A stretch of DNA of 63,714 nucleotides from an uncultured bacterium (GTDB lineage: Bacteria > Cyanobacteriota > Vampirovibrionia > Gastranaerophilales > Gastranaerophilaceae): NCBI GenBank assembly GCA_948433295.1, contig CAOJDT010000002.1, positions 1 through 63,714 of the forward strand, in the 5' to 3' direction. The notes under the pieces are model-generated. The model was not told the DNA's origin. It saw only the letters and a program-made list of their open reading frames with translations, and searched no databases. Within the stretch, counting starts at the first letter, position 1. Each line of letters opens with the position of its first letter. Shown piece after piece: positions 48,216 through 61,662 of the stretch. The translations under genes and the position numbers were made by a program.

Positions 48216-48495
48216 GTCTATTTCTTTTCTTTTGTTGCGAGGCAAAAGAAAAGAAATAGACGAAAGAAAAGAAAACTCGCGACCAAATGATTCGAGTGAG
48301 CAGAAACTACGTTTCCGCACCTTCCTTTGCACCGAGCGTGTGCGAAGCACGATAGCGAGGCAAAAGGTTGACGATTCCCAATCGTCAACTACATCCATTT
48401 GGTTTGCAACGCGTAAGCGGTGCTGAAAACAGCGTGTTTTTTCTTTTTCGGTTCACTTTTTCTTTTTGCGTCGCAATCAAAAAGAAAAAGTGAAC
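48216..48495. repeat. Hairpin-rich non-coding block
   Basis: The 440-bp gap between glyS and the next prepilin gene holds nested inverted repeats: perfect 19-bp arms at 48216-48234/48243-48261, 9-bp arms at 48368-48376/48380-48388, 8-bp arms at 48282-48289/48396-48403, and 18-bp arms at 48451-48468/48478-48495. The two outer hairpins end in pyrimidine/purine-rich stems with 8- to 9-nt loops that share TTGCG/GTCGC words. The short reading frames here mirror the palindromes and are not credible genes. Confidence 0.75.
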
Positions 48496-52493: not shown

Positions 52494-53272
52494 ATGAAAA
52501 CTCAGACTATGAAAGAATCTGCATTAAGGTGGGGGGGGGCTTATCTATGTGTAACCAACACTCAGCAAAGGTTTTCGGGGCTTTTTCTTTAGCAGCAGTT
52601 TTAATTACTTTAGGTATTATCGGAATTGTTGCCGCAATGACTTTGCCTGCGCTGATACAAAATTATCAAGAAAAGGTCGTTGTTAATAAGGTTTCAAAAT
52701 TCTACAGTGAGTTTTCGCAAGCTTACCAGCTGGCGGTTAATGACCTTGGAACAATGGATAACTGGGGTTTAAGCGATACAATTAAGGTAAAAGATGAAAA
52801 CGATCAATATGTTCTGAGTGAAGAAGGACTTAAGTCAACTGAGAAATTTTTTGATATTATGGATAAGTATTTAAAAAGGGTTTCCAGAACTGAAAAAACT
52901 ATTGAATATTCAAAGTCTACAGGTAATGATTATATTTTATCAGACGGAATGTCCATCGCTTCAATACATATATTGCCAATATCTTATTGCAGGCCTTGGA
53001 ATAAGAATTCAACTTGTGCTGATATTTATCTGAAAACTGATACAAAAGAACCAATGTATCGTGCTGATGGCTCTCATAATAAAAATGTTTTTAATTTCCG
53101 TTTACATCCACATTCTGTAACTCCAACCGGATTTATGGATAGTGAATTTGATAAATGTAAATCAGGTGAAAACTATGCAACGTGTACAGCATGGGTTTTG
53201 CATAATAAAAACATGGATTATCTGAAATGTCCTGAAAAATTGAGTTGGAAAGGCAAGCACTCTTGTAAGTAG
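52494..53272 (+). CDS. Prepilin-like protein with poly-G leader, phase-variable; out of frame here (9 G), Glu+5 replaced
   Basis: ATG 52494 has AGGAGG five bases upstream. Its frame passes through 9 G and ends after 32 codons. With 10 G it would read ALRWGGGLSMCNQHSAKVFGA then FSLAAVLITLGIIG, a 30-residue leader and a prepilin of about 230 residues. The otherwise conserved Glu at +5 is Ala (FSLAAV). The ectodomain has 'YILSDGMSIAS' and ends with 'CTAWVLHNKNMDYLKC', like the genes at 57.6 and 60.5 kb. The leader and helix are nearly identical at DNA level to the 57.6-kb gene. Confidence 0.8.
52531..52539 (+). repeat. Poly-G tract (9 G) in prepilin leader
   Basis: G9 after AAGGT; one more G would restore the frame. 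Confidence 0.85.
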
Positions 53273-57630: not shown

Positions 57631-58420
57631 ATGAAATCATTAATTATAGCTTCAAAACAGGTTCGGGGGGGGGGGCTTATCTAGCTGTAACCTCCACACA
57701 GCAAAGGTTTTCGGGGCTTTTACTTTAGCGGAAGTTTTAATTACTTTAGGTATTATTGGTATCGTCGCGGCAATGACTATGCCGGCGCTGATTCAGAAAC
57801 ATCAGGAAAAAGTTACCGTTGCAAAATTGAAGAAAAATTATTCCATAATGCAGCAGGCTTTTTTAATGGCGATTAACGAAAAAGGCCCTATTGAAACCTG
57901 GGGGTTAGCTTTTTCACATGACAATAGAGATTCTGAAGATGAACAAGATATCTCACTTTACGATGATAAAGAAAACATCTTATACCATTTAAAAGATTAT
58001 TTAAAAATCACTAAATATTGCGGATTGGAAAAGGGGTGCTGGTACTCAACACCAATGTATGCATTAAATGGAGAGATTTTCGGATATCCTGACAGAGGAT
58101 TTTTTTCAAAAGCAATACTTGCAGACGGCAGCATGATTTTGGGATACACTGAAGGCGACAGTTCAGGCTTTTTCAGAATAGATGTAAACGGAAAAAATCC
58201 GCCAAATACATTGGGAAAAGATATTTTTACCTTCCATATTGAAAAAAATAAAATCGTTCCATGGGGTGTACGCAGATATCCTTTTGATAATTTTTGTAAT
58301 CCGAAAAGGGGCGGTAAGGATCAAGGCAGAGGCTGTACAGCATGGGTAATTTATAATGAAAACATGGATTACCTTCACTGCGACGGTCTTTCGTGGAACA
58401 GTAATACAAAATGTAAATAA
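57631..58420 (+). CDS. Prepilin-like protein with poly-G leader, phase-variable; out of frame here (11 G)
   Basis: ATG 57631 has AAGGAGG eight bases upstream. Its frame enters 11 G and stops after 17 codons. With 10 G it reads KQVRGGGLSSCNLHTAKVFGA then FTLAEVLITLGIIG (Glu+5 present), a 29-residue leader and a mature part of about 234 residues. The ectodomain has 'AILADGSMILGY', 'RIDVNGKNPPNTLGKD', and a C-terminus 'CTAWVIYNENMDYLHC' then 'LSWNSNTKCK'. Closed by a perfect hairpin terminator. No adjacent HTH gene. Confidence 0.82.
57665..57675 (+). repeat. Poly-G tract (11 G) in prepilin leader
   Basis: G11 after GTTC; 10 would restore the frame. Confidence 0.85.
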
Positions 58421-59587: not shown

Positions 59588-60485
59588 TTATTTACATTTT
59601 TTCTTGCCGTCCCACGAAAGATCATCACAATGCCAATAATCCATGTTTTCATTGTAAATTACCCATGCTGAACAACCCCAGCCCTCGGCTTCAGACGAAA
59701 GACAACCGGAATCAAATCTGTAATATTTAGGATTATAACGGGGGTTTGAACCATCGGAAGTGTTATTTTCAAAGATTTGTGCTCCGTTTGGTATTATTCC
59801 GTATTTTGTTACTGTAAAAATAAACAGGTCATCACCATATTTATTAGGACCTTTGCCTCCGTTTACATCGACAATATATTCTCCACAAACATTTTCTAAA
59901 TATTTTCCGCTTGCATATACTGCATTACAGTCAGGATTTTGAATATATGTATTCATTATCATACCATCAGGCAGAACTGCGCTAAATCGTTGTTTATTTT
60001 TAGGGTTAAATAAATTGTTAAAAACTGTACCTTTTCGCAGGAAAAGTTTTTCTGCAGGATGACATTTTTCACCTACCGTACAAATTTTCAGAAATTTCAT
60101 TTGAGGCTGAATATATTTAAGCAAAATTTCTGAACTATCTAATGTCATCCCCCATTGATCGGGAGTACCATGCTCCATAACTGCAAATTGAAATGCCTGC
60201 GATATTGTTGAATAAAACTTTTTGAGCGCGGTTACTTTTGCTTTCTCCTGATGTTTTTGAATCAGTGTCGGAAGAGTCATAGCGGCAACAACTCCGATTA
60301 TACCGAGAGTGATTAAGACTTCGGCAAGAGTGAAACCGAATTTTGGACTCTGCCGAACAAACGATTGAGTATCGTTTGTCAGAGTTTGCGCCGTGTGAGC
60401 ATGAACAAACCCTTTTTTAGTATTGCTTACCTTAGAGGAGCTCTGCCCCCCCCCCCGAAATAGTTGATATCACTGCGTTTGACAT
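59588..60485 (-). CDS. Prepilin-like protein with very long poly-G leader, phase-variable; out of frame here (11 G)
   Basis: ATG 60485 has GGAGG eight bases upstream. Its frame enters 11 G and stops after 17 codons. With 10 G it continues STISGGGQSSSKVSN... through an open Ser/Thr/Gln-rich stretch to QSPKFG and FTLAEVLITLGIIG: a 50-residue leader and a mature part of about 249 residues. The ectodomain has 'AVLPDGMIMNTY', 'IVDVNGGKGPNKYGDD' and the C-terminus 'CSAWVIYNENMDYWHC'. Its promoter overlaps a 32-bp perfect palindrome. Confidence 0.8.
60446..60456 (-). repeat. Poly-G tract (11 G on minus strand) in prepilin leader
   Basis: C11 on the plus strand; 10 would restore the frame. Confidence 0.85.
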
Positions 60486-60521
60486 AGTTTAACCCTCCAA
60501 TATTTCTTAATTAATATAAAC

Positions 60522-60553
60522 TTAATATCTGTTATAATTATAACAGATATTAA
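60522..60553. promoter_or_regulatory. 32-bp perfect palindrome between prepilin and mlaE-like genes, candidate operator
   Basis: Half-site TTAATATCTGTTATAA followed directly by its reverse complement. It covers the -10 box of the leftward prepilin promoter. Confidence 0.7.
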
Positions 60554-60565
60554 TAATATTTACAA
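60537..60565 (-). promoter_or_regulatory. Promoter of the long-leader prepilin gene
   Basis: TTGTAA (60565-60560), 17 bp and TATAAT (60542-60537), the latter inside the palindrome. Confidence 0.6.
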
Positions 60566-60566
60566 C

Positions 60567-60595
60567 CTGACAAAAATTTTCTTTTATGCTACTAT
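60567..60595 (+). promoter_or_regulatory. Probable promoter of the second mlaE-like gene
   Basis: CTGACA (60567-60572), 17 bp and TACTAT (60590-60595); the ATG at 60607 follows 11 nt later without a Shine-Dalgarno sequence. Confidence 0.45.
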
Positions 60596-60606
60596 CATAA
60601 ACAGTT

Positions 60607-61344
60607 ATGATAAATTTTCTGGGGCTTTGCGTTCAAAATTTAATCAGATGTCTAAAATATCTGTTCAGCGGACAGTTAAGATTTTTTGCAGTAATTTCAC
60701 AGGCTGCTGCCATAAGTTATGACTCACTGCCGATATCCTTAATTATTGCATTCATTGCAGCTGCGGTAATCGCAATACAAGTATCAAAACAGTTTTTGAT
60801 GTCAGGCGCAGAAGCTTATATAGGCGGAACAATTGCTATTGTAATGATAAGAGAAATCGCACCCGGTTTTGTAGCTCTGGCTATAGGAGCGCGTGCAGGA
60901 ACAGCGATTTCCGCAGAAATTGCCAACATGCAGGTAACTTCTCAAGTTGATGCAATAAAGACATTAAAAGTCGATCCTGTAGGATATTATTTCACACCGA
61001 GACTTATTGCCGCTGCGATTACTGTACCTATGGTCGTACTACTTGCGGAAGTTATCGGGGTTCTCGGCGGATTATTTGTATCAAACGTTACTATTGACCT
61101 GCATCCTGACAGATATATGTATTCGGTCTGGGCGTGGCTTTCTACACGTGATATTTATATAAGCTTGTTAAAGGGCGCTGTTTTTGGACTCGTAATAGCA
61201 CTTGTCTGCGCTACACAGGGATATGAAACTAAAGGCGGCGCAAAAGAAGTAGGAAATTCCACCACTCAAGCCGCAATCCTTTCTACAATTTACATGCTTA
61301 TTTGTGATTTTATAATAAACTTAATATTTTATATTGCAAAATAA
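60607..61344 (+). CDS. Second MlaE-family lipid ABC transporter permease
   Basis: 245 residues, multi-pass, with 'ANMQVTSQVDAIKTLKVDP' and 'YFTPRLIAAAITVPMVV', homologous to the permease at 10.9 kb but clearly diverged. No ATPase or MCE gene lies beside it, so it must share an ATPase encoded elsewhere (possibly the mlaF in this window). The start is near-leaderless. The stop abuts that of the convergent HTH gene. Confidence 0.9.
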   Translation: MINFLGLCVQNLIRCLKYLFSGQLRFFAVISQAAAISYDSLPISLIIAFIAAAVIAIQVSKQFLMSGAEAYIGGTIAIVMIREIAPGFVALAIGARAGTAISAEIANMQVTSQVDAIKTLKVDPVGYYFTPRLIAAAITVPMVVLLAEVIGVLGGLFVSNVTIDLHPDRYMYSVWAWLSTRDIYISLLKGAVFGLVIALVCATQGYETKGGAKEVGNSTTQAAILSTIYMLICDFIINLIFYIAK

Positions 61345-61614
61345 TTATTCTAAAATAGACCAGTTTTCGGGTAATTCTTCGTATATCATTTGCATAACGG
61401 TTTCGGGTTTTAAATAATAAGCCTCTGCAATCTTTATAAAAGTTGATATTTGAGGGTCAAGTTCACCTGATTCTGCAATCAGCAGTGTTGTTTTTGAAAT
61501 ATTAATATCATAAGCCACCGAACGAGCCGAACGTTTGGTCTGGGCTCGAAGTTTCGCGATTACTCTTCCAAAAGCTTGAGAAAATTCTTTTTTCTTTGTT
61601 TGTGACACTTGCAT
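61345..61614 (-). CDS. XRE-family HTH regulator, divergent from a prepilin gene
   Basis: 89 residues: 'FGRVIAKLRAQTKRSARSVA' then 'YDINISKTTLLIAESGELDP', a Cro/C1-type HTH, followed by an extra helix. There is no Shine-Dalgarno sequence. Divergent from a prepilin gene, with 66 bp between starts containing a perfect palindrome. Confidence 0.85.
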   Translation of the reverse strand: MQVSQTKKKEFSQAFGRVIAKLRAQTKRSARSVAYDINISKTTLLIAESGELDPQISTFIKIAEAYYLKPETVMQMIYEELPENWSILE

Positions 61615-61644: not shown

Positions 61645-61662
61645 TGGACATAATTATGTCCA
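61645..61662. promoter_or_regulatory. 18-bp perfect palindrome, candidate operator
   Basis: TGGACATAATTATGTCCA, placed at the expected transcription start of the prepilin gene and upstream of the divergent HTH gene. Confidence 0.65.

Follow-up and report, generated by a model that had tools for sequence, protein, structure and literature searches.

A 32-bp perfect palindrome over overlapping -10 boxes of a divergent prepilin promoter: a possible operator in a Gastranaerophilaceae genome

The palindrome and its gene setting

A 32-bp perfect palindrome, TTAATATCTGTTATAATTATAACAGATATTAA, occupies 60522-60553 of the window (the whole 63,714-nt stretch of DNA that was analysed) and has at its centre two overlapping sigma-70-type -10 boxes. 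Since a prepilin gene lies to its left on the minus strand and an MlaE-family gene to its right on the plus strand, the palindrome stands between divergent genes. The exact symmetry, the overlapping boxes and the divergent gene arrangement can all be seen directly. The best-supported single reading, drawn by analogy with other prepilin promoters beside XRE regulators, is that the palindrome may be a cis-acting operator for a dimeric regulator on a divergent promoter, which we put at somewhat under an even chance. The features of the region are as follows.

59588..60485, minus strand: prepilin gene with leader (leader start 60485, stop 59588; N_methyl domain PF07963)
60446..60456, minus strand: poly-G tract in the prepilin leader (G11 on the minus strand), out of frame as assembled
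60511..60538, plus strand: candidate rightward promoter towards mlaE, TTAATA-16-TATAAT with TG before the -10 (promoter scan, 10/12 consensus matches)
60522..60553, no strand: 32-bp perfect palindrome, arms 16 bp, spacer 0 nt, 100% complementary
60530..60545, no strand: core of the palindrome, TGTTATAATTATAACA, with an extended -10 box on each strand, the two overlapping (sequence and promoter scan)
60537..60565, minus strand: leftward prepilin promoter, TTGTAA-17-TATAAT with TG before the -10 (promoter scan, 10/12 consensus matches)
60567..60595, plus strand: separate candidate mlaE promoter, CTGACA-17-TACTAT (promoter scan)
60607..61344, plus strand: lipid ABC permease gene of the MlaE family, running divergently from the prepilin gene (PF02405, 4e-60)
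61345..61614, minus strand: gene for a small HTH protein, XRE-like, and the regulator gene closest to the palindrome (HTH_31 at E 7e-5, short of the curated cut-off)
61645..61662, no strand: a palindrome of other sequence, TGGACATAATTATGTCCA, located between the XRE-like gene and the prepilin gene beyond it

An earlier sequence-only reading had described sixteen base pairs followed at once by their reverse complement, and indeed the halves TTAATATCTGTTATAA and TTATAACAGATATTAA match with 0 mismatches and a spacer of 0 nt at 60522-60553, the G+C content being 12%. The window has no other loop-0 palindrome as long (the runner-up, at 61645-61662, has 18 bp), and no other occurs in 1.2 Mb of genus DNA either; all genus palindrome and core statistics given here derive from this sample, which was taken as stretches of three genomes, with genes as simple ORF calls. 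The same reading held a chance origin to be unlikely, and this is borne out by an expectation, at local composition, of about 4.5e-4 loop-0 palindromes of 16+16 bp per window, with 0.014-0.02 expected per 2-Mb genome. The palindrome is real, though fairly ordinary. Elsewhere in the window, an inverted repeat at 48216-48261 has 19-bp perfect arms around an 8-nt loop.

Overlapping -10 boxes at the dyad centre

The palindrome covers the -10 box of the leftward prepilin promoter (TTGTAA-17-TATAAT, minus strand, 60565..60537) and lies upstream of the mlaE-like gene, whose product matches PF02405 at 4e-60; both points had been claimed and both hold. The point overlooked at that stage is the symmetric extended -10 pair at the palindrome centre between divergent genes. 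Indeed, the TATAAT boxes on opposite strands overlap by the two bases at the centre of the dyad and, from the usual distance between a -10 box and its start, start sites are predicted near 60530 (leftward) and 60545 (rightward), ~15 bp apart. Such a pair between divergent genes by itself suggests two-way transcription.

The site might then serve as a symmetric promoter for both directions, with no regulator dedicated to it; polymerase would bind either way and produce divergent transcripts ~15 bp apart, one into the prepilin gene and one towards mlaE. We regard this as somewhat unlikely as the whole explanation; it is compatible with the operator reading, and the evidence for it is of several kinds. 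On both strands the predicted promoters match 10/12 consensus positions and carry TG-extended -10 boxes, and the overlap of -10 elements on opposite strands is the one that marks bidirectional promoters. Bacterial bidirectional promoters are defined by divergent starts 7-25 bp apart (PMC10268837; PMC12825309), a range which includes the predicted spacing of 15 bp, although the commonest published spacing is 18 bp (PMC10268837). In the -10-symmetric bidirectional promoters of Warman et al. 2021, described in PMC10268837 and PMC12825309, the opposing -10 boxes overlap as they do here, whereas at the present site the symmetry is perfect over 32 bp and the predicted spacing is 15 bp against the commonest 18.

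In the 1.2 Mb of genus DNA, symmetric -10 cores are found 17 times in divergent gaps versus 7 times elsewhere (p 1.5e-5 per bp; p 0.009 for the enrichment relative to TATAAT), which favours two-way transcription but is only suggestive, since the three symmetric cores were selected after the table had been seen. Moreover, in a search of 84,980 species, eight other records were found to contain the palindrome's 20-bp core. In one family of loci (Lacrimispora/Paenibacillaceae MAGs) and in a second from Lactococcus it lies between divergent genes, and in a Dorea MAG at a promoter upstream of a single gene, the palindrome there being extended to 19+19 bp. This Dorea palindrome (L136:564-583) is perfect and independent, has the same TCTGTTATAATTATAACAGA core, and lies just ahead of a gene that we take to be an alcohol dehydrogenase.

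Against a promoter without a regulator, about 8 symmetric bp per arm would be enough and 16 are seen. Among the TATAATTATA cores of the 1.2 Mb (n=19), the arms are 16 bp at the window site and 7 bp at the next longest, and extensions as long as those of the window palindrome are expected around such cores about 5e-5 times in the sample; the symmetry of the -10 core therefore does not explain the outer arms. In addition, a separate candidate promoter for mlaE lies at 60567-60595 (CTGACA-17-TACTAT), and in genome G003 mlaE is preceded by a similarly placed TTGACT-17-TATAAT.

Comparator palindromes and the operator reading

Under the operator reading, a dimeric DNA-binding protein, most likely an XRE-type repressor, would bind the dyad and cover the overlapping -10 boxes, so that RNA polymerase would be blocked at the leftward prepilin promoter and at any rightward start towards mlaE. 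We infer protein binding at the palindrome, the dimeric state of the protein, the repression and which protein is involved. The site is dyad-symmetric and overlaps a promoter, as XRE-type operators do, and its 16-bp arms far exceed what -10 symmetry involves.

Loop-0 palindromes with arms of at least 12 bp are all in divergent gaps (3/3 in the 1.2 Mb, representing two independent loci), and such gaps make up 28% of the intergenic DNA. The closest comparators are putative XRE/Cro operators of the genus. In genome G010, a prepilin gene (L094) has the promoter TTGACA-17-TATACT with a 17-2-17 palindrome overlapping the -10, and an XRE gene stands divergently next to it; the palindrome recurs unchanged in G011, and the G001 ortholog, TCCTATTAACTAGTAGTAAACTACTAGTTAATAGGA, shows two changes per arm that are matched across the dyad, the palindrome remaining perfect. 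Such paired changes are a prediction of selection on an operator, and could likewise arise by template switching from one arm to the other. These sites resemble the window palindrome in that a long dyad covers a prepilin -10 between divergent genes; they differ in that the regulator is the divergent gene there and mlaE is here, that the sequences are unrelated, and that the present palindrome has no spacer and its prepilin gene a poly-G leader. This operator-like palindrome of 36 bp lies, in all three genomes (G010, G011 and G001; L250-L252), between the XRE gene and the prepilin gene, over the prepilin promoter.

Furthermore, at another divergent promoter (L135:10729-10758 in G000:C32, orthologs L236-L244), seven of ten species of the genus share one and the same 30-bp perfect palindrome, ATTATACAATAAAAATTTTTATTGTATAAT, and the DNA matched around it is about 76-84% identical. 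The flanking genes, putatively named from their sequences, are phosphomannomutase-like and acyltransferase-like. Comparable palindromes at divergent promoters of the genus, prepilin promoters included, are kept as palindromes, and both the paired changes at the XRE-flanked site of G010 and G001 and the conservation of ATTATACAATAAAAATTTTTATTGTATAAT support the operator reading.

The dimeric or tetrameric operator proposed in the earlier reading is backed only by the analogy with the genus prepilin palindromes beside XRE genes and weakened by the single genomic copy and the lack of an adjacent cognate regulator. Indeed, no cognate XRE gene lies adjacent to or divergent from the palindrome, the divergent gene being MlaE. 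The nearest XRE-like gene (61345-61614), whose product also resembles RstR (E 2e-4, again below the cut-off), is preceded by a palindrome of its own with another sequence. That palindrome, TGGACATAATTATGTCCA at 61645..61662, is probably the operator of this regulator, and an extended copy, TATGGACATAATTATGTCCATA, is found near the homologous region of G007. Binding of the window palindrome by the neighbouring regulator was rejected, its palindrome GGACATAATTATGTCC being unrelated in sequence. A second candidate was the PerR box, TTATAATnATTATAA, which has in common with the window palindrome an AT-rich half TTATAA near the dyad axis; it too was rejected, as the spacing is wrong and the three central bases of the box are missing.

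A genome-wide search for the half-site, suggested as a check on the operator, returned 20 matches with ≤2 mismatches versus 19 for the reversed control, and so gave no regulon. The one other exact copy in the genome (C10:14847) is within an ORF, no second promoter target of the half-site was found in the genome, and the 22-bp dyad core is unique there at ≤3 mismatches. The missing targets count against an operator, as does the failure to find an intergenic ortholog in relatives.

Gene order and the origin of the arms

Among 118 relatives, compared as one genome per species, no convincing homologous DNA was found, the matches being short, AT-rich and weak, and the palindrome core had no match in viral contigs. 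Absence from related strains had been named beforehand as evidence against the palindrome; it is absent from the related species, but so is the entire intergenic region, and the absence therefore weighs neither way. In 10/11 same-genus genomes the orthologous mlaE is preceded by another gene and a hairpin, and neither the palindrome nor a prepilin gene was found upstream of mlaE in the same-genus genomes. The gene ahead of mlaE in the relatives (product ending KYKHWCMPVY or similar) is presumably a branched-chain aminotransferase and was not found in this genome, an empty result that carries little weight. This difference in gene order puts the palindrome at what appears to be a lineage-specific junction.

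This setting suits a rival reading of the palindrome as a mutational by-product: an imperfect inverted repeat enclosing the TATAATTATA core, near a recent gene-order junction, would have had its arms made perfect by template switching, leaving an outer symmetry without function. The synteny break, with 10/11 same-genus mlaE genes in the other arrangement, and the single copy without a regulon agree with such an origin. Template switching that extends arm identity in quasi-palindromes is documented (PMC7202029; PMC3820800). It could also yield the paired changes of the G001 comparator. We nevertheless consider this origin unlikely: the long loop-0 palindromes of the sample are at divergent promoters only, and one of them has been preserved across species while its flanks diverged.

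The cruciform suggested earlier, in which supercoiling would extrude the AT-rich palindrome and so control the promoter, or else its RNA would be a terminator or attenuator, is energetically possible (14-bp stem in the folded single strand, -9.9 kcal/mol, z -5.4) but highly improbable, as nothing points to extrusion, 0 terminator-like sites were found at the site, and the leftward RNA would carry one arm only because its predicted start is inside the palindrome. An intrinsic terminator was likewise rejected, with 0 found at the palindrome and a stem of 12% G+C.

The poly-G leader and the wider prepilin family

The prepilin gene had been called phase-variable on account of a poly-G switch in its leader, which our results do not establish. 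With all tract lengths taken as assembled, the tract is at an OFF length: G11 closes the prepilin frame after 17 codons, and G10 or G13, the lengths needed, would open 298 or 299 codons. Among same-genus poly-G leader genes, 30/34 need the same -1 step whatever the tract length, 3 need +1 and 1 is in frame. The step in other genera of the family is -1 in 18/45, +1 in 21/45 and none in 6/45 (a few of those 45 leader genes belong to this genus), and these counts are not independent since many leaders are related by duplication. A programmed -1 shift as the reading of the genus pattern was dropped, as the other genera show +1, -1 and in-frame cases. The poly-G data are compatible both with mostly-OFF phase variation and with programmed slippage.

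About 95 prepilin-type genes were examined in the genus, 43 of them with a poly-G leader. In a rough pattern test, none of these 43 had a divergent XRE gene beside it and at least 10 prepilin genes without poly-G did. Three other long palindromes upstream of poly-G prepilin genes resemble terminators of the upstream genes; hence the window gene alone among the sampled poly-G prepilin genes carries a palindrome over its promoter, and this proportion of 1/43 among the poly-G prepilin promoters examined also counts against an operator.

If the palindrome is nevertheless an operator, a prepilin gene with a poly-G leader would also be under transcriptional control, and the palindrome would be a clean DNA bait for its regulator in an uncultured lineage. 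A broader conjecture is that long perfect palindromes on overlapping extended -10 boxes form a distinct, recurring type of promoter-operator that arose separately in distantly related bacteria (the present one, Lacrimispora, Lactococcus and Dorea, the last with 19+19 bp) and that in this genus would add transcriptional control to a poly-G leader holding most prepilin genes out of frame; we judge it decidedly improbable.

In each genome, dozens of prepilin genes follow a short leader peptide that ends in a poly-G tract, and most are a single step out of frame; this may matter more than the palindrome. Such tracts are in the window at 60446-60456, 57665-57675 and 52531-52539, and others are at many loci in G000 and its relatives (L035-L063, L145-L194). 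Two contigs, L091 (G000:C8) and L134 (G000:C86), end within prepilin poly-G tracts in stretches of 52-53 G, which are probably artefacts of sequencing or assembly. Leader sequences differ from genome to genome (MKTIDMTAF.. here, MKNLFR.. in G033 and MKN-IV.. in G021), and across the family poly-G leaders are present in 27/59 genomes.
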